A stretch of DNA of 40,265 nucleotides from a virus, in IMG/VR virus record IMGVR_UViG_3300025466_000089, positions 1 to 40,265 of that record; one strand, 5' to 3'. Of the stretch, positions 12,639 to 39,376 are shown piece by piece. The first letter of the stretch is position 1; every line of letters starts with the position of its first letter. Below the pieces are notes generated by a model, which saw nothing but the letters and a program-made list of their open reading frames with translations, did not search any database and was not told the DNA's origin. The translations under genes and the position numbers were made by a program.

Positions 12639-12667
12639 TTGACCCAAAATAGCCCATTTGCTATAAT
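12639..12667 (+). promoter_or_regulatory. Sigma70-like promoter, leaderless geometry
   Basis: TTGACC (12639-12644), 17-bp spacer, TATAAT (12662-12667). The canonical start site, 7 nt after the -10 hexamer, is 12674, the A of the next gene's ATG. Confidence 0.85.
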
Positions 12668-12673
12668 ACTAAC

Positions 12674-12988
12674 ATGAAGACAAGAAAACGCCGTCAAGAT
12701 ACCAAACATGCAGTTTATATGTTGGTGAATACCTGCACAAACGAGTCATACATTGGTATTACTGTCTGCGGTAGCCAAGTACGAAATGCTTTGAAAGTTC
12801 GTTTTCAGAAGCATGTTCGCCGTGCACTCACTGAAAATAAATCGTGGGCTTTGTGCAACAGCATTAGACAACACGGTGCAGAAGCTTTTGTAGTACTTTT
12901 AGTTGACATCGTGCGTGGCAGAAAGCCCGCACATGCCATGGAGCGTGAGTTGATCAATAGTCAAAAACCCACACTCAACAGTCACTGA
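12674..12988 (+). CDS. GIY-YIG endonuclease
   Basis: 104 residues, a near-minimal GIY-YIG nuclease domain. VYM (14-16) stands for GIY, YIG is at 26-28, an Arg in RFQKHVRRA provides the catalytic arginine, and Glu in AMEREL near residue 88 the metal ligand. It has no extra DNA-binding domain and may be a mobile or host-DNA-degrading nuclease. There is no ribosome site, and the ATG coincides with the predicted transcription start, so the mRNA is probably leaderless. Confidence 0.85.
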   Translation: MKTRKRRQDTKHAVYMLVNTCTNESYIGITVCGSQVRNALKVRFQKHVRRALTENKSWALCNSIRQHGAEAFVVLLVDIVRGRKPAHAMERELINSQKPTLNSH

Positions 12989-12992
12989 GCAC

Positions 12993-13021
12993 TTGACTCA
13001 AAATCCCAAATTGGTTATAAT
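12993..13021 (+). promoter_or_regulatory. Sigma70-like promoter
   Basis: TTGACT (12993-12998), 17-bp spacer, TATAAT (13016-13021), upstream of 13052. Confidence 0.85.
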
Positions 13022-13051
13022 AACAGCATATTAAACAAAAAGGAGCAGAAA

Positions 13052-13318
13052 ATGTCAAACGCAAACGAAGTCAAAATGTACGGAATGACAGAGCAACAAA
13101 TTCGTGATCGCTACATGAATTCAATCACTGCAAAGTGTTCGGGTCTTGAAATGGTTGTTGCTGGTATTCTTTCTGATTGCCAAGAATTGATTGCCATGAA
13201 GAATCCCACCATCCCTGCTCCACTCACAGACAAGCTAATCCGTTGCAATATGAACATTGCCAAATTCATCTTGTTTGAGTTAATGGATGAGAAACGCAAC
13301 CAATCAGCAACAGTTTAA
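13052..13318 (+). CDS. Small phage protein, unknown function
   Basis: 88 residues, mostly helical (MTEQQIRDRYMNSIT, then CSGLEMVVAGILSDCQELI and NMNIAKFILFELMDE). AAGGAGCAG lies before the ATG. No family recognised. It heads an early block of at least six genes behind the promoter at 12993. Confidence 0.75.
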   Translation: MSNANEVKMYGMTEQQIRDRYMNSITAKCSGLEMVVAGILSDCQELIAMKNPTIPAPLTDKLIRCNMNIAKFILFELMDEKRNQSATV

Positions 13319-13328
13319 GGAGTAAACT

Positions 13329-13541
13329 ATGAAAGTCATTGTTGAAACTTTATTGACTCAAGAACTTGAAGTGCCTGACGACTGGGACCGTTTGGATATA
13401 TTTGGCTTCTTAGGCGAGTATCAATCGTTCCGTACAGCGTTCCAGGGGGTGAGCAATGAAGATCAAACAGCACGCATCGTCGACTTAGGCGTTGTGGAAG
13501 AAAGAGTAACTGAAATGGGCGATGAAGCCTACGACGAGTAA
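13329..13541 (+). CDS. Conserved acidic phage protein, unknown function
   Basis: 70 residues, acidic. The centre FLGEYQSFRTAFQGVS followed by ARIVDLGVVEERVTE recalls a small protein common in large phages without known function. AAGGAG precedes the ATG. Confidence 0.75.
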   Translation: MKVIVETLLTQELEVPDDWDRLDIFGFLGEYQSFRTAFQGVSNEDQTARIVDLGVVEERVTEMGDEAYDE

Positions 13542-13564
13542 AATAGCAGAGTCAAGGAACAAAT

Positions 13565-13933
13565 ATGTTAAAATCCTGGGAAGAATTGTCAGAACTAGAG
13601 CAGGCACAAGAAATCTACAGTGACATGCACAAAGATGCCTATGGCTTTCGCCCACGTTTTGATTTCAGCACTTGGACTCTTGACAAGTTCAATTCGCAAT
13701 TTGAGATCATGGGCAAAATCATTGAGGCCGACAATCAACTGCAAAAAGAACAACAGGCAGAAGCTGCACACGATTTTGAAATGCGTGTTTTGAGTTTGTT
13801 GCAGACAGGTGCTAAGAATCGTGCTATGGCCTTGCGTTGGATTCACGAAGCTGAAGGTTCAAACGGTGACAATGAATACCTTTGTTTCTTGCTAGGACTG
13901 AGTTATGGTTATTTTAGAAAAACAGGAGTGTAA
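13565..13933 (+). CDS. Conserved phage protein, unknown function
   Basis: 122 residues, helical. The stretch YSDMHKDAYGFRPRFDF is a recurring signature in small phage proteins without assigned function. The C-terminal part AMALRWIHEAEG to FLLGLSYGYF is a compact helical segment. AAGGAAC precedes the ATG. It lies in the operon from 13052. Confidence 0.75.
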   Translation: MLKSWEELSELEQAQEIYSDMHKDAYGFRPRFDFSTWTLDKFNSQFEIMGKIIEADNQLQKEQQAEAAHDFEMRVLSLLQTGAKNRAMALRWIHEAEGSNGDNEYLCFLLGLSYGYFRKTGV

Positions 13934-13934
13934 A

Positions 13935-14117
13935 ATGGGACAGATGAAATCATTGTTTATGGATTTTTTAGAGAAGTACGATGCATGCACCACTGAAGAA
14001 TTACAACAAGAACTAGACTTGTATCAGAGTCTTGAGAGTGCAGGTGTGAGCGATGAGATTCGCAAGTCATTTTTGGAACAACTTTTAGAACAAAGAAATC
14101 AAGAGGAGACACTGTAA
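13935..14117 (+). CDS. 60-residue helical phage protein
   Basis: Start at 13935, after CAGGAGTG; an upstream ATG at 13905 lies inside the previous gene and ahead of this ribosome site. The protein is an acidic helical hairpin (LYQSLESAGVSDEIRKSFLE). The final A of its stop is the first A of the next ATG. Confidence 0.7.
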   Translation: MGQMKSLFMDFLEKYDACTTEELQQELDLYQSLESAGVSDEIRKSFLEQLLEQRNQEETL

Positions 14118-14389
14118 TGAATGTTAAAGAAATTGCTCATGCCATCAAGTTTGGCGGACTTACCAATGCAGACTTGGACTTGGTTATGTCTGCAGTGAGG
14201 TTTGCTCGTGCAGAAATTGTTCAAGACAACAAACGAACCATGGTGCCTGGCACACAGGTCAAGTTTACTAGCAGTCGTAATGGTCGCACCTATCTTGGCA
14301 CAGTGCAAAAGGTTGCCATCAAGTACATCACAGTGGCCACGGCTGTTGGAACATATCGAGTGCCTGCCAACATGTTGGAGGCCATTTAA
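14117..14389 (+). CDS. Conserved small phage protein, likely SH3-like barrel
   Basis: 90 residues: an N-terminal helical part (ADLDLVMSAVRFARAEI), then a beta-rich part with VPGTQVKFTSSRNGRTYLGT and YRVPANMLE. This 'VxPGxxVxFxSxRxGxxxxGTV' layout is typical of a small SH3-like phage protein. It may bind RNA or DNA, but there is no direct evidence. Confidence 0.75.
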   Translation: MNVKEIAHAIKFGGLTNADLDLVMSAVRFARAEIVQDNKRTMVPGTQVKFTSSRNGRTYLGTVQKVAIKYITVATAVGTYRVPANMLEAI

Positions 14390-14394
14390 ATAAA

Positions 14395-14616
14395 ATGTTT
14401 GTAGTATATCATGTCAAATCTGGCAAGTGTGTCACAGTATATGAACGAGAAAGTTCAGCCAAAGCACAGGTCACTCGCAATAACAAGGCCATGATGACGG
14501 ATATATTACGGGGTGAGCACAAAGATCTTTGGTGGAGAGAACGTAAGGTTGAATGGGCTTATTGTACCTACATGGATTATGAACCCCATTTTTACAGGGC
14601 TTACAAGGCCAAATAG
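14395..14616 (+). CDS. Small phage protein, unknown function
   Basis: 73 residues, Lys/Arg/Trp/Tyr-rich: MFVVYHVKSGKCVTVYE, then a basic helix and WAYCTYMDYEPHFYRAYKAK. Similar small proteins occur in many large phages. Its stop lies inside the left arm of a 13-bp inverted repeat. Confidence 0.7.
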   Translation: MFVVYHVKSGKCVTVYERESSAKAQVTRNNKAMMTDILRGEHKDLWWRERKVEWAYCTYMDYEPHFYRAYKAK

Positions 14617-14642
14617 TGTTGCATAAAAACAACACTATTTGG
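14609..14642. terminator. 13-bp inverted repeat at operon end
   Basis: CCAAATAGTGTTG (14609-14621) and CAACACTATTTGG (14630-14642) pair perfectly around an 8-nt loop. The hairpin overlaps the stop codon at 14614-14616 and abuts the next -35 box at 14643. There is no T-tract, so it may be a weak terminator or an insulator between operon and promoter. Confidence 0.5.
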
Positions 14643-14695
14643 TTGACCAAAAATGCCCATTTTGCTATAATAGATGTATAGTAAGTAACAAGGAG
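14641..14695 (+). promoter_or_regulatory. Sigma70-like promoter plus leader, repeat copy A
   Basis: TTGACC (14643-14648), 17-bp spacer, TATAAT (14666-14671), then a leader ending in AACAAGGAG. The whole 55-bp block is identical to 14927-14981. Confidence 0.9.
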
Positions 14696-14701
14696 CAGTA
14701 A

Positions 14702-14923
14702 ATGACGCATTTGGAATTTGAAAGTAATGTATGCTATATCACCCGTCCGTTGTTAAATGACAACGAACATGTGGGATTTTTTGAGAACACAGGCACACTA
14801 TTTGCCGCCTGTTCTAAAGCCACTGCTGATAATATTTTTGACAGATTGGTCATGGAATTTGGCCAAGGTAAAGTGACAATGAACGGCCCTGTTCAAGGTG
14901 AGTACACTTACAATTTTGTATAA
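14702..14923 (+). CDS. Small phage protein, unknown function
   Basis: 73 residues: MTHLEFESNVCYITRPLL, a GFFENTGTLFAACSKATAD middle and a beta-rich C-terminus ending in YTYNFV. It looks like a compact alpha/beta fold. AAGGAG at 8-nt spacing. Monocistronic between the two copies of the 55-bp promoter repeat. Confidence 0.7.
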   Translation: MTHLEFESNVCYITRPLLNDNEHVGFFENTGTLFAACSKATADNIFDRLVMEFGQGKVTMNGPVQGEYTYNFV

Positions 14924-14926
14924 AAC

Positions 14927-14981
14927 GGTTGACCAAAAATGCCCATTTTGCTATAATAGATGTATAGTAAGTAACAAGGAG
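14927..14981 (+). promoter_or_regulatory. Sigma70-like promoter plus leader, repeat copy B
   Basis: Exact copy of 14641-14695, with TTGACC (14929-14934) and TATAAT (14952-14957). The repeat includes the ribosome site, so both downstream genes should be expressed alike. Confidence 0.9.
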
Positions 14982-14988
14982 TTCAAAA

Positions 14989-15267
14989 ATGTCTTATGTA
15001 ATTGTTAGCAAAGGTACTGGTTTAATCGTTACAGACGGTCCCAATAAAACTCGTGCATACAAGACTTTTGGTGCAGCCAAAGCAACTCGTACCCGTCTTT
15101 GTCGTAAAGCAGGCTGGAGCGAAAATCAACTGAACATTGTGACCCGCGAAACTTATCGCGCACCAACTAAAAAGGTCACAAATCTCATGAGTGGCATTGA
15201 GATTGAAATTGATGCGGACACTCCTCGTTGTTGCGACCCTTCCTCAGAATTGTATTGGACCATGTGA
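14989..15267 (+). CDS. Conserved phage protein with CCDPSSE...YW C-terminus
   Basis: 92 residues, basic in the middle (ATRTRLCRKAGW). The C-terminus CCDPSSELYWTM is a strongly recurring ending in small phage proteins; function unknown. The two adjacent cysteines may bind metal. AAGGAG lies 8 nt before the ATG. Monocistronic behind promoter copy B. Confidence 0.8.
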   Translation: MSYVIVSKGTGLIVTDGPNKTRAYKTFGAAKATRTRLCRKAGWSENQLNIVTRETYRAPTKKVTNLMSGIEIEIDADTPRCCDPSSELYWTM

Positions 15268-15273
15268 TTTTGG

Positions 15274-15302
15274 TTGACCCAAAATTGCCAATTTGTTATA
15301 AT
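15274..15302 (+). promoter_or_regulatory. Sigma70-like promoter
   Basis: TTGACC (15274-15279), 17-bp spacer, TATAAT (15297-15302). It resembles the 55-bp repeat (shared TATAATAGA and GTAAG leader) but has diverged. Confidence 0.9.
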
Positions 15303-15332
15303 AGAGTTATAGTAAGAAAACAGGAGCAACTC

Positions 15333-16043
15333 ATGCAATATTATATGTCAAAATATCCGTCAAAATCAACTCGTGTGGCCCAGCCTGGTACCAAGTATCC
15401 AGTCACCATAGTCTGGGCCGCAGCAGTGGCAGCACATCGTATCAATGACAATCGTTACATCAAGGCAACAGAATGGGATACTCAAGCAGAGCCTCCTGTG
15501 GTAAAATACAGAACCAATCGCGAAGTGTTCGCAGAATTACTGGCCAATCCTGATCGATTGGATGCTGGTGACATCCAGGCTGGACAAGAATGCTTGGACT
15601 GGATACGTGGTGACTTCACGGTCAAAGCACTCAAAGGTCAACTCAGCGATTTTGATTTGAGTGTTCAAAAGGTCTTGGCTTTAGAGTCAGAGTTTGATAG
15701 CAATCTAGACCGGTTAGCCTTGGCAGTGGTGCCATGCTTGCCAGCCAGCCAAGCTCGCGGCCAAGCTCGGGCAGAAAGTGATTCACGTCTGCGTCAAACT
15801 GTAAATCAGCATGTGGGCCAAGTTGGTGACAAGATCGCCCTGGATATCGAAGTGTTGAGAACTAGTTATAGTCAAAATTTCAACACATGGTTTGTGACTG
15901 CGGTAGACAGTGAAAACCGCAGTGTGTTTTTCAGCTATCGTGCTCCTATCGATCTAGGACCTGGCGTGAAAATCCGTGGTACTGTCAAATCTCACCGTGA
16001 CAATGCAACCACTCAACTCAACAGGGTGACAGTTTTATCTTAA
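15333..16043 (+). CDS. Phage protein, possible nucleic-acid binding, unknown
   Basis: 236 residues from the ATG at 15333 (CAGGAG upstream); an ATG at 15228 lies upstream of the promoter and is rejected. The N-terminal part is mixed alpha. The C-terminal about 75 residues (VGDKIALDIEVLRTSYS, VTAVDSENRSVFFSYRAP, GVKIRGTVKSH) form a beta-strand series resembling an OB fold. I suspect a nucleic-acid role but do not recognise the family. Confidence 0.7.
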   Translation: MQYYMSKYPSKSTRVAQPGTKYPVTIVWAAAVAAHRINDNRYIKATEWDTQAEPPVVKYRTNREVFAELLANPDRLDAGDIQAGQECLDWIRGDFTVKALKGQLSDFDLSVQKVLALESEFDSNLDRLALAVVPCLPASQARGQARAESDSRLRQTVNQHVGQVGDKIALDIEVLRTSYSQNFNTWFVTAVDSENRSVFFSYRAPIDLGPGVKIRGTVKSHRDNATTQLNRVTVLS

Positions 16044-16052
16044 GGAATTATC

Positions 16053-16175
16053 ATGCAAATTTTATTTGTACTGGCTATCGAAGCCATAATTGTGATCGCC
16101 GTAGCCTTGGGAATAGGTCATATTGCGGACCGTGCAGATCATATCAAAACTCAAATTCAGGACGTACAAAAATGA
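16053..16175 (+). CDS. 40-residue membrane peptide
   Basis: Reading from ATG 16053: MQILFVLAIEAIIVIAVALG, then a polar tail with HIADRADHIKTQIQD. One membrane helix. AAGGAATT precedes it. Its stop overlaps the next ATG (ATGA). It has the same layout as the next peptide, suggesting a duplicated or paired membrane microprotein. Confidence 0.7.
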   Translation: MQILFVLAIEAIIVIAVALGIGHIADRADHIKTQIQDVQK

Positions 16176-16297
16176 AATTTATTTACGGTTTTGTATTTGG
16201 ACTGATTGTAGCAACCGTTGGTTTTTCGGGTGTGGCTCGGATCATGGACCATGGGATCACCACAATCAAATCACAAGCTGAGTCACTGGCACAGTGA
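16172..16297 (+). CDS. 41-residue membrane peptide
   Basis: Reading from ATG 16172: MKFIYGFVFGLIVATVGFSG, then a polar tail ARIMDHGITTIKSQ. One membrane helix. The tail 'R-x-x-DH-x-x-x-x-KxQ' parallels the previous peptide (DRADHIKTQ). They may be partners, for instance in envelope modification or lysis timing. Confidence 0.7.
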   Translation: MKFIYGFVFGLIVATVGFSGVARIMDHGITTIKSQAESLAQ

Positions 16298-16334
16298 TTT
16301 TGGGCAAATTGCAGAATCTAAATAACACAAATGG

Positions 16335-16363
16335 TTGACACTCAAATCCAATTGTGTTATAAT
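16335..16363 (+). promoter_or_regulatory. Sigma70-like promoter (near consensus)
   Basis: TTGACA (16335-16340), 17-bp spacer, TATAAT (16358-16363), both perfect hexamers. The 67-nt leader begins with a TGTTAG/CTAACA hairpin (about 16370-16386). Confidence 0.92.
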
Positions 16364-16430
16364 TTAGATATGTTAGCAAGTCTAACATTAATTTTAAACT
16401 CAACAGGCAACTTAAAAAGGCAACACTATT

Positions 16431-16784
16431 ATGTCAACAACTGAAAAAACTTTCTCCGTAGCAGGTACAGCAACTAACCCAGATGGCACAACCAAGGCTC
16501 GTTTTGCAAACGACATGGTGGCCCGTCACAAGATTTTGCAAAAAGCAGGTTGTACAGATATCAACTTGATTGAACTTCCACATGCAATGACCAAGTTACA
16601 GGCCTTGCAATATTTGCAAGAGCAAGGTATCACTGAAGGCGATGCTGGCTATGCAGTGGCCAACAAATTGGCAGAAAAAACTAAGATTGCCAAGAAAGGT
16701 GAATTGAAAGTTTCTGCTTCAAGTGTGAAAACTGCCAAGGCTCCTGCCAAAACTGCCGTCGCAGAAACAGCAGTAGAAGCTTAA
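16431..16784 (+). CDS. Abundant-looking small phage protein, unknown function
   Basis: 117 residues. The core ARFANDMVARHKILQKAG, INLIELPHAMTKLQALQYLQ and a Lys/Ala-rich C-terminal tail (AKAPAKTAVAETAVEA) recall a phage family of unknown function. The near-consensus promoter and long leader suggest high expression. The alanine/lysine tail could contact nucleic acid. It ends in a strong terminator. Confidence 0.8.
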   Translation: MSTTEKTFSVAGTATNPDGTTKARFANDMVARHKILQKAGCTDINLIELPHAMTKLQALQYLQEQGITEGDAGYAVANKLAEKTKIAKKGELKVSASSVKTAKAPAKTAVAETAVEA

Positions 16785-16801
16785 ACGCTGTTTAACTCTA
16801 C

Positions 16802-16826
16802 AAATGGCACTTCGGTGCCATTTTTT
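16802..16826 (+). terminator. Intrinsic terminator with UUCG loop
   Basis: AATGGCAC (16803-16810), TTCG loop, GTGCCATT (16815-16822) and six Ts. The UUCG tetraloop with a C-G closing pair is exceptionally stable. Confidence 0.95.
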
Positions 16827-16856
16827 ACGATTTCGAAATCCGTCATAATTACATAT

Positions 16857-17102
16857 ATGCTCGACGAAACAACGCAAGAAGAAATAATACGCATAGCTAC
16901 CATGCATCTCATGTTGGTGCTGTATCGAGAAGGTATTACCAAGATACACATGGGAGGACTCATGCGTGTGTTGGGTGTGCCCAACGAAACTGCAGCCGAT
17001 CACGACAACGAAGAAGTCGAAATGGACGAAGACTTCGCTAAATATGTTGAGCAGATGACTGAGTTCGCTAGAATTCAACCTGCCAATCAATCCTTACACT
17101 AA
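16857..17102 (+). CDS. Small acidic phage protein, unknown function
   Basis: 81 residues from the ATG at 16857; the longer frame from 16815 would start inside the terminator. Helical N-terminal half (ETTQEEIIRIATMHLMLVLY), then MGGLMRVLGVP and an acidic tail (DNEEVEMDEDF). There is no ribosome site. A -10-like CATAAT (16844-16849) would put transcription start one nt from the ATG, so leaderless translation is possible; the -35 is poor. It is followed immediately by the next gene (TAAATG). Confidence 0.7.
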   Translation: MLDETTQEEIIRIATMHLMLVLYREGITKIHMGGLMRVLGVPNETAADHDNEEVEMDEDFAKYVEQMTEFARIQPANQSLH

Positions 17103-17345
17103 ATGTCTCAACCCAAAGACAAACATGGCGAAGCCATGTTTATAATAATTCTAAGAACACCTCAGGCTAGAAATTTATTCACCACCTGGATTAATAACAA
17201 TAAAAGTGCTCGCGCTCGAATTGACGATGGGCGTATGCACTTGTTTGATCACAATACTTTAAACCTGTTTATGGTCACATGGAAACACAACTGGGACGAT
17301 GTTACCATATGGGACACATGGAATCGCCGACACATACATGGTTAA
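17103..17345 (+). CDS. Small phage protein, unknown function
   Basis: 80 residues, beginning directly after the previous stop without a visible ribosome site, so translation is probably coupled. Basic middle (NNNKSARARIDDGRMHLF) and Trp-rich end (WKHNWDDVTIWDTWNRRHIHG). A 9-bp hairpin with GAA loop (17121-17141) lies in codons 7-13. No family recognised. Confidence 0.65.
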   Translation: MSQPKDKHGEAMFIIILRTPQARNLFTTWINNNKSARARIDDGRMHLFDHNTLNLFMVTWKHNWDDVTIWDTWNRRHIHG

Positions 17346-17352
17346 ACAAAAT

Positions 17353-17380
17353 TTGACAAGTGTGCAAAATGTCGTATAAT
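17353..17380 (+). promoter_or_regulatory. Sigma70-like promoter
   Basis: TTGACA (17353-17358), 16-bp spacer, TATAAT (17375-17380). Confidence 0.88.
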
Positions 17381-17405
17381 TACTATACATTTAAAGGAAA
17401 CACAA

Positions 17406-17594
17406 ATGACACAACATGAACAAATCGTAGCCGCTTATGAAACATATCTTGCTGAAAATGAAAAATTCACAGGTAAAGGTGTAAAAGCTGCTGCCGCTCG
17501 TGCCCGCAAAGCTCTACAAGAAATGAGTAAAGGCATCAAAGAACGTCGCAAAGAAATCACTGTAGAAAAAGAAGCATTGACCACTGCCAAGTAA
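17406..17594 (+). CDS. Histone H1-like (Hc1-like) small basic protein
   Basis: 62 residues, helical and rich in Lys/Arg/Ala: GKGVKAAAARARKALQEM and IKERRKEITVEKE. The pattern resembles Hc1/histone-H1-like proteins that occur in many large phages and may bind DNA or RNA non-specifically. AAAGGAAA precedes the ATG. The strong promoter suggests abundant early expression. The assignment rests on composition and the K-A-A-A-R-A-R-K motif, so it is moderate. Confidence 0.7.
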   Translation: MTQHEQIVAAYETYLAENEKFTGKGVKAAAARARKALQEMSKGIKERRKEITVEKEALTTAK

Positions 17595-17595
17595 A

Positions 17596-18006
17596 ATGGC
17601 GTATGATGATTTAAAAATCAGCACAGGAACATTTCCAGGATGGGGCACCTTGCCCCAGTCTAATGTATGTTCCATTAGCGCCGCAACACAGATTTCAGCT
17701 GCGACCAACCAGTATGTGTATGCTACCAATGGAACATACACAAGCTCACCTATCACTTCAACTCCAAGCGGAACTCTCGAACTTCAAGGTGAAGGTGCTG
17801 ATGTCCGAATCAATGGCGTCAGTCTAACTGGTGTGCTAAAAAACATTGAGGAACGACTGAATATACTACGCCCTAACGCAGAATTAGAAACTGAGTGGCA
17901 TCAGCTCAAAGAACTTGGTGACCAATATCGTCAATTGGAAGCAGAATTAAAAGAAAAATCTAAGATGTGGGAAAAACTTAAAGCAATGCCGCCGGTGATT
18001 GGTTAA
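17596..18006 (+). CDS. Conserved phage protein with C-terminal coiled coil
   Basis: 136 residues. The N-terminal 70 residues are Ser/Thr/Ala-rich (SISAATQISAATNQ). The C-terminal half, VRINGVSLTGVLKNIEERLN then LKELGDQYRQLEAELKEKSKMWEKLKAMPP, is a helical coiled coil. This C-terminus is frequent in phage proteins of unknown role, perhaps structural. It starts 1 nt after the previous stop. Confidence 0.75.
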   Translation: MAYDDLKISTGTFPGWGTLPQSNVCSISAATQISAATNQYVYATNGTYTSSPITSTPSGTLELQGEGADVRINGVSLTGVLKNIEERLNILRPNAELETEWHQLKELGDQYRQLEAELKEKSKMWEKLKAMPPVIG

Positions 18007-18084
18007 GTGTGTAGTTAATGGCAAAACTGGTCCGAAACAACAGGCATTTGGGCCCTGATTAAGATCAGTTACTAAGTATTTGTG

Positions 18085-18145: not shown

Positions 18146-18179
18146 GTCTTAACACCAATTCAGGTAAAGGAGAAACAAG

Positions 18180-19078: not shown

Positions 19079-19081
19079 TGG

Positions 19082-19110
19082 TTGACTTTGGACGTTTTTT
19101 ATGTTATAAT
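19082..19110 (+). promoter_or_regulatory. Sigma70-like promoter
   Basis: TTGACT (19082-19087), 17-bp spacer, TATAAT (19105-19110). It drives 19140 and probably the IF-1 gene downstream. Confidence 0.88.
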
Positions 19111-19139
19111 ATAGGTATATTAACCACTAGGATAATCCT

Positions 19140-19532: not shown

Positions 19533-19888
19533 CATTTGACCCAGATGCATTTAACAAAAGTGAAACTTGGCGTTTACTACAAAGTGAAAAAAGCAGCTGG
19601 TACCAAGAAGCCGACGAAGCAGGTCAACAAGCACTCCGAGATTGGATGCACAGTACACTAAAAGAAACTCAACTTCAAATTGAATTTACCAAAGCTGATG
19701 GAATGCATAGATCAATGACTTGTACATTAAACGAATCATTGGGTGCTAGACCGGTAAATAAACTGGCCACAGATAAACCAGAACTTATAGACAAAAAAGA
19801 AACGTGTGTGGTTTGGGATTGCAACGCCAATGGTTGGCGTAGTTTTAGGTGGGACAGATTACGAAAGATAGCGTTCACAATTGAGTAA
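19529..19888 (+). CDS. WYL_2 / DUF2693-like small barrel protein
   Basis: 119 residues. The C-terminal part LQIEFTKADGMHRSMTCTLN, then VVWDCNANGWRSFRWDRLRK, matches the SH3/Sm-like WYL_2 (DUF2693) family common in phages; the role is unknown, possibly ligand or nucleic-acid sensing. The N-terminal about 45 residues are helical and phage-specific. It is the gene just upstream of IF-1, overlapping it by 8 nt. Confidence 0.75.
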   Translation: MTFDPDAFNKSETWRLLQSEKSSWYQEADEAGQQALRDWMHSTLKETQLQIEFTKADGMHRSMTCTLNESLGARPVNKLATDKPELIDKKETCVVWDCNANGWRSFRWDRLRKIAFTIE

Positions 19889-20099
19889 AGAAGATGTGAT
19901 AAAAATGGAAGGTGTAGTAGTAGAAGTTTTACGCAATACCACATATAGAATTAAAATATCAAATTTTGAATTGCCTGTGTTGGCCACACTAAACGGGCGC
20001 ATGCGCCAAAACAATATCAAAGTCCTAGCCGGCGACACAGTTGAAATGGAATTCAGTCCTTACGATCTTGCTCGTGGACGTATTGTTAGACGCAGATAA
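19881..20099 (+). CDS. infA: Translation initiation factor IF-1
   Basis: 72 residues, the length of bacterial IF-1. The OB-fold signature is present throughout: KEDVIKMEGVVVEVL at the N-terminus, YRIKISN, NGRMRQNNIKVLAGDTVEME and SPYDLARGRIVRR at the C-terminus. IF-1 binds the 30S A-site and cooperates with IF-2 and IF-3 in start-site selection. The TTG start is supported because MSKEDVIKMEG aligns with the conserved IF-1 N-terminus; a later ATG (19905) would remove it. It overlaps the previous gene by 8 nt, with little Shine-Dalgarno, so translation is probably coupled. A phage-borne copy is unusual. Confidence 0.9.
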   Translation: MSKEDVIKMEGVVVEVLRNTTYRIKISNFELPVLATLNGRMRQNNIKVLAGDTVEMEFSPYDLARGRIVRRR

Positions 20100-20102
20100 A
20101 TA
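20097..20102 (+). promoter_or_regulatory. Late-type promoter box TAAATA, leaderless geometry
   Basis: GATAAATAT overlaps the IF-1 stop codon. With T4 late geometry (+1 six nt after the last A of the box) transcription starts at 20108, the A of the SodB ATG. Confidence 0.5.
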
Positions 20103-20107: not shown

Positions 20108-20668
20108 ATGGAAACAGCAAGCTCAATAATGGATTTTATTTATATAGTCGAGGCAAGTACTAGACCAGCCAAACTGGAAACCACACCTTTGCCTTACTCT
20201 GAAAAGGCCTTGGATCCTGTGATGAGTAAGGAATCCATAAATTATCATTATGAACACTTGGCCAAAGGCTATGCCAAACGCTACAATGCTGGCGAAGGCA
20301 ATGCCGATTTTAACCGGGCTGGCAGTTTCTTGCACAACAAGTTTTTCCCTCAATTGCGACCACCCAAAGGTGCCAATCGTCCCCGAGGTGCAGTGCTAGC
20401 CCTCATAGAAGAAAATTTTAAAACCTACGAAGATTTTAAAATTGCGTTTAAAGAAATCGCAATGAAAATACAGGGCTCAGGTTGGGTATATTTAAGCACC
20501 AACGGCACTATCAAAACCATACCTAACCATGCAGTCCGCACCGATATCTGTGTATTGGTTGACTGGTGGGAACATGTTTGGGCTTTAGATTATCAATGGG
20601 ACAAAGAACGGTATCTTGACAATATTTGGAAAATAATTGACTGGGACGTTTGTAACGAAAGACTATGA
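20108..20668 (+). CDS. Iron-type superoxide dismutase (SodB-like)
   Basis: 186 residues. [20 protein letters not shown] carries ligand His47. Then come FLH (His76), GSGWVYL (123-129) and DWWEH (Asp152, His156), giving all four Fe/Mn ligands, with the family's final [20 protein letters not shown]. It converts superoxide to peroxide and oxygen in the cytoplasm. The first about 27 residues are an extension; an internal ATG at 20129 is an alternative start. There is no ribosome site: the ATG coincides with the predicted late start. Metal choice (Fe or Mn) is not decidable by eye. Confidence 0.85.
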
Positions 20669-29391: not shown

Positions 29392-30285
29392 ATGACCAGT
29401 GCCATAAACCCAAATAATATCAACGGTGCCTATCCAGTGGCTGGACAGGACAACAACAGTCAAGGATTTCGTGACAATTTTACCAATACTGCCACAAACT
29501 TTCAATATGCGGCCAACGAAATAACTGCACTTCAAAATAATGCAGTGTTGTCAGTGGATTTGGCAACCAGTACTAATCCAGTATTTAATAATTTGTTGAC
29601 CAGTACTCTTAGCAATGGGTATCTACAAAATATGTACACTCCATTGGTGCCACTGGGCACGTTAAATGGAGCAGTCACTGTAAACTATGCTTTGGGATCA
29701 TATCAAACTGTAACTACCAGTGGTTCAATCACATTGGGTTTCAGCAACTTACCTGCAGCTGGCAAGGTTGCTACTGTTACTCTACAAATTACTGTGGCCA
29801 GCACTGCACACACACTACAACTACCAGCTGCAGTTTCAATTAACAATGCAGGAATTCAAGGCATCAATGCATCAACCAATGTGATTACTTTTGCAGCAGT
29901 AGGAATATATGCTTTTCAATTCACTACCAGCGACGGTGGATCCACTGTGTCTGTGGTACAAGTCAATGAACGTATATCACCGTTCAACAATTCTGCTGAA
30001 GCTTTGGCAGGCAGTGCCGCAGCCAATTTAGCAACTACTACTAGTTATTTTGCCACGGTATCGACCGAAACTGCCACATTGGCTGCTGGAGTAGCAGGAC
30101 AAATAAAAACTTTTTGTGCAGTTGATATCACTGCTGGTAACATGGTTATCACAGTCACAAATGCTGGCTGGAAGTCATCCGGCACAGGCACTATCACATT
30201 CAGCGCCCGCGGATCTAGTTGCATTCTACAGTATGTCAACTCTAAATGGTTTTGTATTGGCAACAATGGTGCAGCATTTGCTTGA
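29392..30285 (+). CDS. Virion protein, tail-fibre-related
   Basis: 297 residues. The N-terminus MTSAINPNNINGAYPVAGQD and SQGFRDNFTNTATNFQYA is a recurring module of phage fibre/structural proteins, and the rest is Ala/Thr/Ser/Val-rich beta structure ending in CILQYVNSKWFCIGNNGAAF, which looks like a small domain at the distal tip. It lacks the shared cleavage-like domain. GGATTACAA precedes the ATG. Last gene of the virion cluster. Confidence 0.8.
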   Translation: MTSAINPNNINGAYPVAGQDNNSQGFRDNFTNTATNFQYAANEITALQNNAVLSVDLATSTNPVFNNLLTSTLSNGYLQNMYTPLVPLGTLNGAVTVNYALGSYQTVTTSGSITLGFSNLPAAGKVATVTLQITVASTAHTLQLPAAVSINNAGIQGINASTNVITFAAVGIYAFQFTTSDGGSTVSVVQVNERISPFNNSAEALAGSAAANLATTTSYFATVSTETATLAAGVAGQIKTFCAVDITAGNMVITVTNAGWKSSGTGTITFSARGSSCILQYVNSKWFCIGNNGAAFA

Positions 30286-30310
30286 CCAATAGGCAATGAT
30301 GTTGTATAAT
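30282..30310 (+). promoter_or_regulatory. Sigma70-like promoter, leaderless geometry
   Basis: TTGACC (30282-30287) overlaps the previous stop TGA. 17-bp spacer, TATAAT (30305-30310). The canonical start 7 nt downstream is 30317, the A of the next ATG. Confidence 0.85.
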
Positions 30311-30316: not shown

Positions 30317-30538
30317 ATGGAACATCCGTTAATTAGTAACCTAAATGATCTAACAGAAGAACAACTGTTAGAAAAGATATTTGAACTAAGGAAAAAATTA
30401 AACATTGCCTATGGCACAGGCAATGCAGATCTCTGTAACCAAATACGCATGGCCATTGAGAGTTTTCAGTCCAAATACAATGAAAAAACACGCCGTGATT
30501 CTAACAATAACTTTGACGAGATAATTAACATTTCATGA
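30317..30538 (+). CDS. Small phage protein, unknown function
   Basis: 73 residues: MEHPLISNLNDLTEEQLLEK, a basic ELRKKLNIAY helix and NADLCNQIRMAIESFQSKYN, a small helical fold that recurs in large phages. No ribosome site; the ATG is at the predicted transcription start, so it is likely leaderless. ATGA overlap with the next gene. Confidence 0.75.
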   Translation: MEHPLISNLNDLTEEQLLEKIFELRKKLNIAYGTGNADLCNQIRMAIESFQSKYNEKTRRDSNNNFDEIINIS

Positions 30539-34109: not shown

Positions 34110-34677
34110 CGCAGACGGTGTATTACTTGATTGGGAATATGCATTTAATATCTGGATGCAGGAACATGGATTTGAACAAGTACCGGGCAGTAAATTAAGT
34201 TATGAAATGGACGAACGTTATGGTGTTCCCAAAGAACAAATTCGTAAACTAATTAGACTATTCAATGAAAGTGCTGCAATTGGATTCTTACCAGCATTAC
34301 GTGATGCCATGTATTATGTTAAAAGATTGCATGAAGAACATGGCTATAAATTTCACTGTATCACAAGTTTGAGCACTGATCCTAATGCAGTACGATTGCG
34401 TGAAATGAATTTAGCCAAATTGTTTGGCAAAACAGCATTTGAACGTGTGTTGTGTTTGCCCACTGGTGCTGACAAAAACAAAGCCCTAGAAGAATATAGA
34501 GACACAGGTTGTTGGTGGATCGAAGACAAACCTGTAAATGCCGAAGCAGGATTGGCAGTAGGACTGCGACCTTTAGTTATTGAACATGGTCATAACATGC
34601 ATTATTATCATGAACACATCACGCTGGTAAAAAACTGGCGTGATGTGTATCAGATCATTACCGATCAGTCGGTGTAA
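34060..34677 (+). CDS. HAD-superfamily hydrolase (5'-nucleotidase-like)
   Basis: 205 residues. ILVDADGVLLDW (Asp17, Asp19) is HAD motif I, HCITSLS near residue 105 motif II, a Lys (GADKNKAL) motif III, and WWIEDKPVNAEAG motif IV. HAD enzymes use the first Asp as nucleophile to hydrolyse phosphate esters; phage members often act on deoxynucleotides. Start at 34060 or 34066; AAGGA precedes both. It overlaps the preceding gene by 50 nt, and its 3' end overlaps phoH by 13 nt on the other strand. Confidence 0.82.
   Translation: MDMSSKWKNLDQLILVDADGVLLDWEYAFNIWMQEHGFEQVPGSKLSYEMDERYGVPKEQIRKLIRLFNESAAIGFLPALRDAMYYVKRLHEEHGYKFHCITSLSTDPNAVRLREMNLAKLFGKTAFERVLCLPTGADKNKALEEYRDTGCWWIEDKPVNAEAGLAVGLRPLVIEHGHNMHYYHEHITLVKNWRDVYQIITDQSV
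34614..34648. other. 11-bp inverted repeat at convergent gene ends
   Basis: ACACATCACGC (34614-34624) and GCGTGATGTGT (34638-34648) pair perfectly with a 13-nt loop. On the minus strand it begins 17 nt after the phoH stop codon (34665) and may stabilise or end the phoH mRNA; no T-tract follows. Confidence 0.4.
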
Positions 34678-35399
34678 AGTTTTAATACGGATCCTATGAT
34701 CTCGTGTCGCTGAATATCGCGAGCTGACAACTCGCACAAAGCAATACCATTTACACCCCCTTCCCCCAGTCTTTGACAAAGGTCTAACAGTCCATTGTCG
34801 CCACAACTACGGTCGGCTTGTTCTATGTCTCCAGTGATCACAATTTTGCTGTGTACACCTATACGTGTCATCAGCATCTTGGTCTGGGCGGGTGTTGCAT
34901 TTTGCATTTCATCTGCAATGATCCAGGAGTTCTTGAAAGTTCTACCTCTCATGAACGCCAATGGAGCTATTTCTATCACTTGATCTTCTATCATGCCTGC
35001 AATTTCCTGCGGGCGATAATACTCTCGTAAAACATCTAATAAAGGGCGAGTCCACGGTTCCATTTTGGCAACCAGGTTGCCGGGTAAGAATCCATGTTGT
35101 TCTCCTTCTACTCCTACTGCTGGGCGTGTTAGAACTATGCGTTTACAGTCTCCTTCTTTGAGTGCTTTTACAGCGGCCAACATGGCAAGATAAGTTTTAC
35201 CAGTACCTGCGGGTCCTACTGTGACTACGATGTGTTGCGCTTTATCTTGAAGAGCCAGCACCAAACGTTCCTGATTCCTAGTTCTAGGAATCAAATCTAC
35301 CCTACGCGAGGATATTTTTGGAAGTGCTTGGTTGAAACTTATGGTGTTTTCTACTGGATTCATATGACGATGTGCTTTTGCGGCTCTTTGTCTGCTCAA
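34665..35399 (-). CDS. phoH: PhoH-family ATPase
   Basis: 244 residues. Walker A GPAGTGKT (62-69), PAVGVEGEQHGFLPG (the PhoH signature region), Walker B IIADEMQNA near 166 and ITGDIEQAD near 201 mark a complete PhoH. PhoH proteins are ATPases linked to RNA metabolism or phosphate stress and are extremely common in phages, but their exact role is unsettled. The start is TTG at 35399 with GGAG 8 nt upstream; an internal ATG at 35363 is an alternative. Opposite in strand to its neighbours, with its own late-type box. Confidence 0.93.
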   Translation of the reverse strand: MSRQRAAKAHRHMNPVENTISFNQALPKISSRRVDLIPRTRNQERLVLALQDKAQHIVVTVGPAGTGKTYLAMLAAVKALKEGDCKRIVLTRPAVGVEGEQHGFLPGNLVAKMEPWTRPLLDVLREYYRPQEIAGMIEDQVIEIAPLAFMRGRTFKNSWIIADEMQNATPAQTKMLMTRIGVHSKIVITGDIEQADRSCGDNGLLDLCQRLGEGGVNGIALCELSARDIQRHEIIGSVLKLYTD

Positions 35400-35446
35400 G
35401 TGCTATTCTCCATATGGTTAAATGCCAACAATTGCTGCTGGTAAAG

Positions 35447-35452
35447 TATTTA
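35447..35452 (-). promoter_or_regulatory. Late-type promoter box TAAATA for phoH
   Basis: Minus-strand CCTAAATACTTT lies 53 nt before the phoH TTG, longer than elsewhere. The core CTAAATACT also occurs at 12285. The remaining gap (35453-35558) has no plausible ORF. Confidence 0.45.
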
Positions 35453-35558
35453 GGCCCAGGTGATCAAAAGTTCAGTGGGCATTGATATTTTTTAAAATCG
35501 CACTAAGTATTAGGCTTGGCTACAATATTTTAATAAATTGGTCTTTGATCGACTACGC

Positions 35559-35564
35559 TAAATA
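35559..35564 (+). promoter_or_regulatory. Late-type promoter box TAAATA, leaderless geometry
   Basis: GCTAAATAATC: with T4 late spacing transcription starts at 35570, the A of the ATG. No ribosome site is present. Confidence 0.45.
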
Positions 35565-35569
35565 ATCAT

Positions 35570-36169
35570 ATGGGACTTAAAGATCAAGAATTATTCAAAG
35601 ACCACAGTGATTACTGGCAGGTAGCAGAAAACATCCGTGACATTTACATGTCAGAAGGAAGTTTGCTGAGTCTACTAGACTTTGAACGTGTGCTAGACGA
35701 ATTGGATTTGTATGCTTTTAAAAACTGGGCCATAGGTGAATTAGTTCAAGGTCCAGAAATTGGCAAGTATCGTGTGGGTTGTATTTTTATGTGGCCCGAA
35801 AAACTCATGCCAGATCCACGTGGTGCCAAGCGACTACTACCTTTTGACTGCGAAGTGCGCTACAAAAAAACCAACATGAAGATTCCTGTAAAGATTGAAG
35901 ATCCTAGCGATTTTCGCCCTGGCACACACAAAGCCAAAATTGTAGAGAAAAAAGTTTGGCTGGTAGAAATCGTCATGCCCAAGGCCTTGATGAGTGATAT
36001 ACGTACTGGTTCAGTTGAACTTGAAGATCAAGACATTGATCTGGAAGATCTTGACAGTGCCTACGAGCAAGATCTTGATCAACAAACATTCCAGACTAAA
36101 AATGCACAACAACAAAATGCACAACAACTACAACAACCCGCAGCCATCCAACCCTCAGTGGCTATTTGA
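35570..36169 (+). CDS. Conserved phage protein with Gln-rich tail
   Basis: 199 residues. The core DFERVLDELDLYAFKNWAIG, ELVQGPEIGKYRVGCIFMW, P-rich PEKLMPDPRGAKRLLPF and KIPVKIEDPSDFRPG is characteristic of a phage family with no known function. After residue 155 it becomes acidic, then low-complexity Gln/Asn-rich (QQNAQQLQQPAA). No ribosome site precedes the ATG. The next gene starts inside the Gln-rich part, in another frame. Confidence 0.78.
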   Translation: MGLKDQELFKDHSDYWQVAENIRDIYMSEGSLLSLLDFERVLDELDLYAFKNWAIGELVQGPEIGKYRVGCIFMWPEKLMPDPRGAKRLLPFDCEVRYKKTNMKIPVKIEDPSDFRPGTHKAKIVEKKVWLVEIVMPKALMSDIRTGSVELEDQDIDLEDLDSAYEQDLDQQTFQTKNAQQQNAQQLQQPAAIQPSVAI

Positions 36170-36689
36170 AAGCCTAGGTTACAAGGATCTTGAGGGTTTG
36201 TTAAAACCCACGATCCATGTTGACGAGTTTTCAAGTAAAATGGGCGATGACGATGACATCATTGTGCTTAGTTTTTTTGTACGTGATCAGCAGGCTGCCA
36301 AAGACCTTATGAACTGGTTTGAAAAAGGTTATGACTTTGTGGTTGATGCAGATAAAAGTCCCGGCGAAATTCGCCCCAACCGTTTTTTGGTCTATGTGGA
36401 AATACGTCGACGAAGCACTGCCGCTGGCCATGTAGAAACATTACTAACTGATTTGAATACCTTGACAGAATTTGAGCCAAAAGACTGGATCATGCACTAC
36501 AAAGGAAAAGAAGTTGCTTTCACTAGAGATGCGTTTGAAAACATGGTACCACTGAGTCCCAAGGCATATCGTAAAGTACACGACGAAGATCTCAACGAAG
36601 TCAGAATTGCAGCAGGATTGCCTACCAAATCTATCTACGAAAAAGACGATCCAATAATTCGAGCCATACAAAGCGCTGCAGGAATTTAA
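36102..36689 (+). CDS. Conserved phage protein, unknown function
   Basis: 195 residues from ATG 36102, or 190 from ATG 36117; both lie within the previous gene's tail. Conserved-looking parts: NPQWLFESLGYKDLEGLLKP, TIHVDEFSSKMGDDDDIIVL, LMNWFEKGYDFVVDADKSPG, RPNRFLVYVEI and the C-terminal IAAGLPTKSIYEKDDPIIRA. It is acidic and soluble and looks like a T4-like core protein of unknown role. The overlap with the previous gene (about 50-70 nt) is long, as in some T4-like pairs. Confidence 0.78.
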   Translation: MHNNKMHNNYNNPQPSNPQWLFESLGYKDLEGLLKPTIHVDEFSSKMGDDDDIIVLSFFVRDQQAAKDLMNWFEKGYDFVVDADKSPGEIRPNRFLVYVEIRRRSTAAGHVETLLTDLNTLTEFEPKDWIMHYKGKEVAFTRDAFENMVPLSPKAYRKVHDEDLNEVRIAAGLPTKSIYEKDDPIIRAIQSAAGI

Positions 36690-36721
36690 TCAATATAGGA
36701 TTACAGGCTATATATTTGCCT

Positions 36722-37417
36722 ATGCAGATTAAAAGTTTTGGATGTAGTTTTATTTTTGGCAGTGAATTGGCCGACGATGGTAGGCACAAATCATATGCCA
36801 CCGGCAGTCAACTAACATGGCCGGCATTGCTAGCCAAACACTATAATTATCAATATGCCACGTATGCCAGACCAGGGTCTGGCAACCTGCAAATTCTAGA
36901 AAGACTCATGAGTAATTTAGCAGGAGAAGTCAATGAAAAAATCCTGTGTGTGATTGGTTGGTCATGGATTGATAGATTTGACTACTGTGTTGAAAAACCA
37001 ACTTGGCCCGGCCAACCCTGGGCTACACTTATGCCAATTGATTCAACAGAAACTGCCAAAATCTATTATCGAGACCTGCACTCTGAGCTCAAAGACAAAT
37101 TCCTAAGCTTGTTGTACATCAAACAAGCAATTAATTTGCTCGAACAGAAAAAAATACCGTTCATTATGACGTACATGGATAATTTACTGTTTGACAACCA
37201 GTGGAATACCAGTCCTGCCATAGAAGAATTACAACAACAAATCAAACCTTTTATGACTACTTTTGACGAATTGACCTTTTTGGAGTGGAGCAGAAAACAC
37301 CAATATCCAGAAACCCAAAATTGGCATCCATTGGAGCAGGCACATCAGTCAGCAGCTCAATATATTATTCAGGCTTTAGATAGGAAAAATATAGGCGCTC
37401 ATTGCCATCTCTTTTGA
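36722..37417 (+). CDS. SGNH-hydrolase-like protein
   Basis: 231 residues. SFGCSFIFGSEL places a candidate nucleophile Ser9 in a GxSF block, YARPGSGNLQI gives the second block with its Asn, and NWHPLEQAH near residue 202 has the His of the final block. These form the SGNH/GDSL esterase pattern. Phage members might deacetylate or esterify sugars; the substrate is unknown. Start ATG 36722; TTG at 36716 is possible. Its last 53 nt overlap the opposite-strand methyltransferase. Confidence 0.72.
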   Translation: MQIKSFGCSFIFGSELADDGRHKSYATGSQLTWPALLAKHYNYQYATYARPGSGNLQILERLMSNLAGEVNEKILCVIGWSWIDRFDYCVEKPTWPGQPWATLMPIDSTETAKIYYRDLHSELKDKFLSLLYIKQAINLLEQKKIPFIMTYMDNLLFDNQWNTSPAIEELQQQIKPFMTTFDELTFLEWSRKHQYPETQNWHPLEQAHQSAAQYIIQALDRKNIGAHCHLF

Positions 37418-38093
37418 ATTCCAACAGTTTGAGATTGTATTTTTCTGCAAATTCATTTACTATTTCAAAAGTCCAGTGAAATATATCTACATAAGGCCCA
37501 GTTTTGTGTGCAATACCCGGATTGGCTCTGAGATAAAACTTACCTCCTGGCATTAATAAATCTACACAATGACTGAATCTGGCTTCAATTTCATCCTGGC
37601 TATTGAAATTGATTGATCCCAATGCCAATATATGGTCATGCTTGTGTTTGACTTTATAATCTAAAATATCAACTTCAAAATCAGCACAATTGTTGTATGG
37701 ATCAATACCTATTAAATTTTTAATACGACCTTTGAATGGATGATATCCGCAGCCCACATCTAGTACATTTTGAGGATCTTGTTTGTTGATTTCTTCGACC
37801 AAGGCCCAGCCTGTGTAATCATAATCGCCAGTTCTTGGCTTCCAAATCTCAGCAAAGAAACGATGAGTGTAACGTTCGCTTAGATCAGCCACAATATCTT
37901 CCAGAGTACCCATATAGTCACATGGCAAACTTAATTCGGCTTCTACAGAATCTTTGAATTTTTGATACCTTGCTGGAGTCCAAGGCAATTTGTCAACCAC
38001 AGTATCACGATCAAATATAATATTTTTATATTTGGGTAAATTAAAAGTAGTTTGTAAATTTTTCAACAATAGATTAAAAATTTTTGTGTTCAT
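37365..38093 (-). CDS. SAM-dependent methyltransferase (class I)
   Basis: 242 residues. NVLDVGCGYHPFKG near residue 109 is a class-I SAM-binding motif I, IGIDPYNN the motif II acidic position, ALGSINF a motif IV-like turn, and DLLMPGGKFYLRAN the usual strand-loop before motif VI. Acceptor unknown (small molecule, sugar or lipid). It is transcribed opposite to and between an SGNH gene and a sulfotransferase-like gene, suggesting a shared role in glycan decoration. Confidence 0.82.
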   Translation of the reverse strand: MNTKIFNLLLKNLQTTFNLPKYKNIIFDRDTVVDKLPWTPARYQKFKDSVEAELSLPCDYMGTLEDIVADLSERYTHRFFAEIWKPRTGDYDYTGWALVEEINKQDPQNVLDVGCGYHPFKGRIKNLIGIDPYNNCADFEVDILDYKVKHKHDHILALGSINFNSQDEIEARFSHCVDLLMPGGKFYLRANPGIAHKTGPYVDIFHWTFEIVNEFAEKYNLKLLEFKRDGNERLYFSYLKPE

Positions 38094-38151
38094 AACATTA
38101 TGTAGTTAAAATAAACACTGATTGAATAATTTCTTGACAAAATGGACCCAA

Positions 38152-38157
38152 TAAATA
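38152..38157 (+). promoter_or_regulatory. Late-type promoter box TAAATA, near-leaderless
   Basis: CAATAAATACTT lies 10 nt before the ATG at 38162; T4 late spacing puts transcription start at 38163, within one base of the ATG. Confidence 0.45.
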
Positions 38158-38161
38158 CTTT

Positions 38162-39376
38162 ATGAATGTTCTAATATTAACACCTGATAGAGTTGGATCA
38201 ACTTTGTTGCAACGAGTATTGACAGTGTATATGCTACGCCAGGGTTTTGATAAACCAGTGATAAATCTACATGAATTAACCAATGGACTGGTAAAGTATT
38301 ACAATGATGTACTGCAACAAGAAGTATTAGGCAAACCCAAAGGTACTTATAGCAGTGGATACTATCAAACCCTTGACCAGGTGCAGGATTTACTTGGATC
38401 AGTGGATCACTATAAAACTACCAGACTTGCACACTATCACATAGTTAGACGAGCTGATACCATTGCAGATCAAATAAAATTTTACGAATATCTCAATGAT
38501 AATTTTTACATTATAAGTTGCCGTAGAGAGAATTTGTTTGAACATGCCATAAGTTGGGGCATTCAAAGACAAAGCAAACGTCTAAATGTGTATAATGTTG
38601 AAGAAAAAATAAATGTTTTTCAAAACATATACAAAAACAAAATCAGTGTTCCTAAAGAAACATTACTGCATCATCTTGACAATTATAAAAACTATATCTC
38701 ATGGGCGGATACAAATTTTAATATACAGTCATATTGGAACTATGACATTGATGTAAAAAACATTGAAAAATATATTTTGAATTTGGATTTCATGCAAAAC
38801 AATATCAATAATACCTGGAAGGAAATGTTTGGGCAAGATTTTAACACGTGGAATGCTTGCCATAGAATTTTGCCTAATTTAAAATTACTTGATCGTGCCA
38901 CTGCTACAAAAAAAATCAAAATACTTACTAAACCTATCAGCGAAGAAGTATGGAATCAACTCAAAGGACCTGACTGGCCACAAACTGCCATGGAATATGT
39001 CAACTACACTGATAATTTGCCAATCACCATTGATAATGAAATAAAAAAGTTATTTGACGAAACGTCACTGAGCGTAACTGATGAAGAATACACTTTTTTA
39101 GAAAAAAACTTGACCCTATATGTCAACACAAATATTCAACTGTTAAAACTGGTCAGTGATGGATTTTTGGTCACAGGAATTCCACTGAAATTGCAATCAC
39201 TAAGAGAAAAAAAATCAATAATAAAAAACTTTGATCAATGCCTGGATTGGTACAATACATGGAGTCAACAAAATAACTTTGGAACCATGTACACTGACAA
39301 TGAATTGGCGTCAATTATGCTCGATCAAGATTTAGAACTAAGTTTTCAAGTTGATCAACAAATTTTGTTGCAGTGA
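38162..39376 (+). CDS. Sulfotransferase-like protein
   Basis: 404 residues. TPDRVGSTLLQRVL (7-20) resembles the 5'-phosphosulfate-binding P-loop of PAPS sulfotransferases (RSGSTxL-type), and ISCRRENLFEHAISW near 117-131 resembles the 3'-phosphate motif (R..N...S). If real, it transfers sulfate from PAPS to a sugar or tyrosine. Sulfotransferase-like genes are known in marine phages. The C-terminal about 200 residues are not recognised. Its last 62 nt overlap the opposite-strand SGNH gene. No ribosome site is seen. Confidence 0.68.
   Translation: MNVLILTPDRVGSTLLQRVLTVYMLRQGFDKPVINLHELTNGLVKYYNDVLQQEVLGKPKGTYSSGYYQTLDQVQDLLGSVDHYKTTRLAHYHIVRRADTIADQIKFYEYLNDNFYIISCRRENLFEHAISWGIQRQSKRLNVYNVEEKINVFQNIYKNKISVPKETLLHHLDNYKNYISWADTNFNIQSYWNYDIDVKNIEKYILNLDFMQNNINNTWKEMFGQDFNTWNACHRILPNLKLLDRATATKKIKILTKPISEEVWNQLKGPDWPQTAMEYVNYTDNLPITIDNEIKKLFDETSLSVTDEEYTFLEKNLTLYVNTNIQLLKLVSDGFLVTGIPLKLQSLREKKSIIKNFDQCLDWYNTWSQQNNFGTMYTDNELASIMLDQDLELSFQVDQQILLQ

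Follow-up and report, generated by a model that had tools for sequence, protein, structure and literature searches.

Genes in a clade of uncultured freshwater T4-like jumbo phages appear to be expressed as leaderless mRNAs, transcribed from promoters that abut the start codon and read from the 5ˊ AUG; we put the probability of this reading at roughly 0.88. The case began with IMGVR_UViG_3300025466_000089, a linear IMG/VR fragment of 40,265 bases from a T4-like phage, hereafter the window, meaning the whole stretch of DNA that was analysed. Six genes in it had been noted in an original prediction because their ATG lies at or beside the expected transcription start site (+1) of a sigma70-type or late-type promoter. 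The observation of these promoter/ATG pairs is confirmed and is larger than first noted, and a leaderless reading of the genes, judged from sequence features, is well supported. The gene content of the window is T4-like and includes a clamp loader, late-type boxes, a GroES/gp31-like protein, the superoxide dismutase SodB, the initiation factor IF-1 and an iron-sulphur protein. Among cultured phages, the jumbo phage PA5oct is the nearest relative (54% identity in the clamp loader), and contigs of 320-364 kb are among the close uncultured relatives. When cultured phages were searched at the nucleotide and protein levels with the window, its GIY-YIG gene and the gene at 16857, no matches were returned.

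In the mechanism that we propose, the +1 nucleotide of a large, fixed set of genes would be the A of the start codon or lie up to 3 nucleotides (nt) before it. Early members would be transcribed from host sigma70 promoters arranged as TTGAC-17-TATAAT-N6-ATG, and late members by a phage late sigma factor of the gp55 family from TAA[A/G]TA-N4-7-ATG. The resulting mRNAs would carry a 5ˊ-terminal AUG without a Shine-Dalgarno (SD) sequence, and their translation would follow the leaderless pathway, with the ribosome recognising the 5ˊ AUG directly. The boxes, their spacing, the use of ATG only, the absence of SD sequences, the pyrimidine at −1 with A at +1, the conservation among orthologues and the late sigma gene are all seen in the sequence, and from them we infer the actual 5ˊ ends and the route of translation.

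Promoter-to-start spacing in related phages

Spacing was analysed in four near-complete jumbo relatives of ~340-355 kb (G004, G005, G008 and G016) and in three shorter contigs (G001-G003). For each distance from a promoter box, we counted the ATGs that open an open reading frame (ORF) with 40 codons or more. Strict sigma70 promoters, defined as TTGAC-18-TATAAT, are followed by 30 such ATGs at a gap of exactly 6, compared with ~0.7 per nearby position (Poisson p ~1e-37); nearly none are present at gaps 7-17, and a broad second peak appears near 27-32 nt. Following TAAATA, there are 167 ORF-opening ATGs at gaps 4-7 (45, 64, 25 and 33 at gaps 4, 5, 6 and 7) where 27 are expected (p ~1e-72), then a trough, and then a second peak at 17-25. 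The seven related records have two sharply separate start distances, the leaderless gap and one of ~17-33 nt, and the few positions at which the leaderless-gap peaks fall do not differ between the records.

Control trinucleotides give no comparable peak at the leaderless gaps, save for a repeated leader motif, and GTG and TTG starts give no peak there in the seven relatives. When all 18 variants that differ from TAAATA by one base were compared, a clear but weaker peak was seen for TAAGTA and TAATTA alone. An unbiased search for hexamers upstream of ORFs returned SD strings, TAAATA at gaps 5 and 4, and TATAAT at gap 6 together with the matching TTGACC at −35; besides SD, these two boxes at these gaps are all that it yields near starts. 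As a separate observation, viral contigs picked for unrelated spacing have a gap-6 excess (12 versus ~1), and sigma70 units of the leaderless type are therefore not confined to the clade.

Independent signatures of leaderless-type starts

The strings GGAG, GAGG or AGGA precede none of the 46 sigma70 leaderless-type starts and only 3 of the 167 late ones, compared with 57% of leadered starts. The base at −1 is a pyrimidine in 86% of late and 74% of sigma70 leaderless-type genes, versus 52-57% of leadered genes. RNA polymerase usually prefers a pyrimidine at −1 and A at +1, and this match therefore points to the A of the ATG as +1. A gap of 6 is also the canonical distance to +1 after TATAAT. 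Late starts at gap 7 have the form TAAATA-N4-AC(T/C)-ATG, which suggests a three-base leader for its transcripts. In-frame alternative starts preceded by an SD within 25 codons are few, at 3% of late and 13% of sigma70 genes.

All seven of the jumbo clade genomes that were tested carry a gene for a gp55-family late sigma factor (phrog_12791, phrog_234), which makes it reasonable to regard TAAATA as the target of this factor; no such gene was found in three shorter fragments.

Conservation and gene content

Each genome of ~345 kb carries 38-46 leaderless-type genes. After background subtraction, these account for ~54% of late and ~26% of sigma70 promoters that have a nearby start. Leaderless-type late genes are also leaderless in the other genome in 72% of orthologue comparisons, versus 7% for leadered late genes, and the corresponding values for sigma70 genes are 52% and 5%. 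The spacing between box and ATG is constant among orthologues, while the length of the N-terminus and the upstream genes vary. Leadered orthologues are found only at the edges of the clade, namely sodB of PA5oct and the relatives L179 and L180 for the gene at 30317, and these cases indicate that leaderless and leadered states can interconvert. The original prediction had named normal leaders at the same genes in related phages as evidence that would count against it; inside the clade, this comparison goes in its favour.

The leaderless set includes genes for the portal protein, a gp25-like baseplate wedge, virion structural proteins, metallophosphoesterases and nucleotidyltransferases, as well as a CHASE2-cyclase and a 3ˊ-5ˊ exoribonuclease-like protein. 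It had been suggested that such genes could form a separate regulon, but functional coherence is not supported, because the set spans both promoter classes and includes structural, metabolic and endonuclease genes. It is therefore better viewed as a way of expressing genes than as a functional regulon.

The six genes in the window

The positions first reported for all six promoter/ATG pairs are correct, and no AGGA, GGAG or GAGG lies ahead of any of the six ATGs, as had been claimed. All features below are on the plus strand, and conservation is given as the number of distinct sequence contexts in relatives. The sigma70-type promoter at 12639-12667 (TTGACC-17-TATAAT, with TG preceding the −10 element) ends 6 nt before the ATG of a predicted leaderless ORF (12674-12988) for a GIY-YIG endonuclease-like protein of 104 amino acids (Pfam GIY-YIG E 1.8e-4, just under the cut-off; PHROG homing endonuclease 3.9e-7). 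This gene is leaderless-type in all 56 contexts. Its neighbours also differ: the flanks of L183-L262 show no fewer than two or three genomic settings, as would be expected for a mobile endonuclease that carries its own minimal promoter-start unit. The second sigma70-type promoter (30282-30310; TTGACC-17-TATAAT) lies 6 nt before a predicted leaderless ORF of 73 amino acids (30317-30538; MEHPLI...), which is leaderless-type in 13 of 17 contexts. Three of the remaining four have an SD-like leader, and in L179 and L180 this leader is 20 nt long with GAGG. Both promoters combine a TTGACA-like −35 element, a spacer of 16-18 and TATAAT, and the clade logo of sigma70 promoters reads TTGAC/TATAAT.

Among the late-type pairs, the TAAATA box at 20097-20102 is 5 nt from the ATG of sodB (20108-20668), a predicted leaderless gene for an Fe/Mn superoxide dismutase of 186 amino acids (Pfam Sod_Fe_C 6.9e-20, Sod_Fe_N 1.9e-6). 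The upstream gene (19881-20099) encodes IF-1 (72 amino acids; Pfam PF01176 E 1.9e-17), and its TAA stop sits within the box. The arrangement TAAATA/TAAGTA-N4-7-ATG precedes sodB in 56 of 56 contexts, including those with an upstream gene other than that for IF-1. Another TAAATA box (35559-35564) is 5 nt from the ATG of a predicted leaderless gene for a virion structural protein (35570-36169; 199 amino acids; phrog_12928 head and packaging E 1.5e-27), and 55 of 59 contexts are leaderless-type. A third, at 38152-38157 in a divergent intergenic gap, is 4 nt from a predicted leaderless ORF of 404 amino acids (38162-39376); the box of its relatives is TAAATA or TAAGTA, and 13 of 15 contexts are leaderless-type.

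The gene at 16857 (ORF 16857-17102; 81 amino acids; predicted leaderless, with a terminator-like hairpin upstream) had been placed in the sigma70 class on the basis of CATAAT ending at 16849. This class is rejected, because there is no proper −35 element and the relatives have TAAGTA, TAAATT or TAATTA 4-7 nt before the ATG (26 of 30 contexts). We assign the gene to the late-type class and read its box, CATAATTA at 16844-16851, as TAATTA (16846-16851) 5 nt from the ATG. The claim that both promoter classes give leaderless-type starts holds, as does the view that this is unusual for a T4-like phage (no start lies 4-7 nt after the ATAAATA boxes of T4), but the class of this one promoter does not. 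A comparison of the 5ˊ ends of the six mRNAs for RNA structure revealed no common pattern.

Most neighbouring genes had been said to carry an SD, and the adjacent strong early promoters do have leaders, mostly with GGAG-type sites. The promoters at 12993, 14643, 14929, 15274, 17353 and 19082 have leaders of ~18-25 nt, most with such sites. For instance, the ordinary early promoter at 14643-14671 (plus strand) has its ATG (14702) 30 nt past the −10 element, with AAGGAG. Three near-identical promoter-leader units of this kind (14643-14701, 14929-14988 and 15274-15332) read TTGACC...TATAATAG..TATAGTAAG...GGAG; they precede different small genes and resemble a repeated expression cassette. A candidate leaderless upstream ORF at 16370 (TATAAT-N6-ATG, 24 codons) was rejected, because relatives keep a 5ˊ-terminal hairpin of changing sequence and not the reading frame. 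In the window, the early mRNA of the gene at 16431 opens with the hairpin ATGTTAGCAAGTCTAACAT (16370-16388). In relatives, 5ˊ-end hairpins that differ in sequence are followed by a conserved GGCAAC..AAAGGCAAC leader. Elsewhere, the products of the adjacent genes at 9724-10662 and 10659-11564 seem by eye to be tandem duplicates, and 11661-12288 appears, also by eye, to encode rubrerythrin-like and rubredoxin-like proteins; these would make up an oxidative-stress set together with SodB.

Alternative explanations

Several points weigh against the leaderless reading. The leaderless 5ˊ ends in these uncultured phages are predicted from promoter spacing, and the late box that is conserved in the clade is only TAA[A/G]TA rather than the full T4 TATAAATA. 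In the window alone, TAAATA-N4-7-ATG occurs 4 times versus 3.9 in dinucleotide shuffles of both strands, which is chance level, and the sigma70 pattern is in weak excess (3 versus 0.8). These late pairs could accordingly be a coincidence in an A/T-rich genome, and the test was therefore shifted to related genomes. The comparison of promoter-to-ATG distances that the original prediction called for, with both shuffled sequence and relatives, thus yields chance for the late class in the window but a strong excess in the relatives. The peaks are shared by all seven related records, orthologues conserve the arrangement, and no leaderless spacing peak exists in T4, PA5oct or 121Q despite as many or more boxes per kb. 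It is only with the relatives that coincidence can be rejected, on the strength of the shared peaks and the orthologue conservation, and we now give it almost no credence. The same negligible standing applies to the idea that a TAAATA near an ATG is simply the TAA stop of the upstream gene beside the next start. The sodB box in the window does contain the IF-1 stop, but this box is kept where the upstream gene is different, and the box of the gene at 38162 lies in a divergent gap. For the class as a whole, the explanation is rejected because an upstream ORF ends in only 27 of 163 leaderless late boxes, and the share is 17% for leaderless and leadered boxes alike. It is improbable, if less extremely so, that the boxes are genuine promoters while the true starts lie elsewhere, several nt inside the ORF or at upstream promoters, with SD-independent initiation in the A/U-rich sequence of normal leaders or at a downstream start. 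This would be compatible with start sites that are predicted from sequence and with late gaps that spread over 4-7 nt. However, the canonical gap after TATAAT, the −1 pyrimidine and +1 A, the scarcity of SD-preceded alternative starts and the use of ATG only all argue for starts at the ATG itself.

What the leaderless arrangement might be for is a further step of inference. A gene without an SD would be translated only from a message begun at its own promoter, and not from upstream read-through. Its protein would then be tied to the timing of that promoter, a purpose that we prefer, although at somewhat less than even odds; the equal closure of upstream ORFs in leaderless and leadered late boxes gives it no direct support. 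A serious competitor, which likewise falls a little short of an even chance, is that promoters were pushed onto start codons to save DNA and that the host tolerates the leaderless mRNAs, with no regulatory role. Such a by-product of compaction opposes the proposed purpose and not the leaderless reading itself. It agrees with the equal overlap of leaderless and leadered late boxes with the upstream gene, and with the lack of a shared function among leaderless genes. It fits poorly with the fixation of the same genes across orthologues that are ~30-60% identical, with an interchange from the leadered class of at most 7%, and with the fact that the trait is not seen in the equally dense relatives PA5oct, 121Q and T4.

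Comparison with known systems

A model leaderless mRNA is that of lambda cI (PMC9031893), and mycobacteria use leaderless mRNAs genome-wide (PMC4633059). The phage genes described here resemble these bacterial and single-phage-gene examples in their predicted 5ˊ AUG without an SD, their use of ATG only, and a predicted +1 at the A of the ATG. They differ in belonging to a lytic T4-like clade with ~45 predicted cases per genome, in involving two promoter classes including one served by the phage's own late sigma, and in extending to portal and baseplate genes. Leaderless mRNA as such is already known, but its predicted use throughout a clade of lytic T4-like jumbo phages seems to be new; a limited literature search found no description of clade-wide leaderless use by a phage.

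T4 late promoters have the consensus TATAAATA and are recognised by gp55. The late boxes of the clade share their TAAATA core, the lack of a −35 element and a gp55-family sigma gene, but they do not conserve the TA ahead of this core, and roughly half of them are 4-7 nt from an ATG. PA5oct has SodB, the late sigma, S21 and an initiator-like tRNA in common with the clade, but it has no leaderless peak, a normal leader at sodB, and no IF-1. P-SSM2 is almost wholly leadered. The TATG late promoters of the jumbo phage phiKZ also place a start site near an ATG-like string, but their mapped +1 is the G of TATG (PMC4666361). The phiKZ transcript, made by a different polymerase, does not begin with AUG, and we therefore rejected it as a precedent.

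In the cultured Pelagibacter phage HTVC008M (Kyanoviridae), TAAATA is followed at a gap of exactly 5 by an ORF-opening ATG in 12 cases. Nine of these were checked, and all nine are annotated coding sequence starts, including those of tail, baseplate and curli genes (6280-49760). Unlike the clade, HTVC008M has the late class only, at gap 5 only, and no IF-1, and its pattern is a smaller, independent version. Adenylate/guanylate cyclase genes are leaderless-type in both phage groups (L286:8026-10068, the jumbo CHASE2-cyclase, and HTVC008M 11972).

Possible links to translation factors

IF-1 family members are present in all 17 clade records (G001-G017), and no IF-3 was found in these records; 121Q and Atu_ph07 have IF-3 and no IF-1. 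A Met-tRNA with the initiator-type C1xA72 mismatch was found in three of four jumbo genomes examined and also in PA5oct. Phage Met-tRNAs at L293:7029-7104, L309 and L326, and that of PA5oct (L386), carry the initiator marks C1xA72 and a GG/CC-type anticodon stem. Leaderless translation is reported to be stimulated by IF1 and initiator tRNA and inhibited by IF3 (PMC9031893). Conceivably, phage IF-1, the initiator-like tRNA and the lack of IF-3 could form a dedicated programme that shifts infected ribosomes to 5ˊ-AUG messages, so that late genes would gain over host SD messages, but we consider this unlikely. HTVC008M has leaderless-type late genes without IF-1, which is therefore not required, and pattern hits are few in Phosso, which does have IF-1. 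A search of bacterial genomes for an IF-1 donor gave best matches of 46-58% identity from many phyla and no host signal. The link between IF-1 and leaderless expression is a lead and not a result.

Significance

Leaderless mRNAs are usually deemed rare exceptions in Gram-negative systems and phages. If the prediction is true, a large, conserved leaderless set in lytic jumbo phages would offer a natural system for studying under what conditions, and for what reason, ribosomes start on a 5ˊ AUG that lacks a leader, and the cultured HTVC008M would provide an immediate experimental entry. Gene finders that expect an SD may call the wrong starts in such phages, and the distance from promoter to ATG may serve as a simple test for the leaderless class in uncultured viruses.

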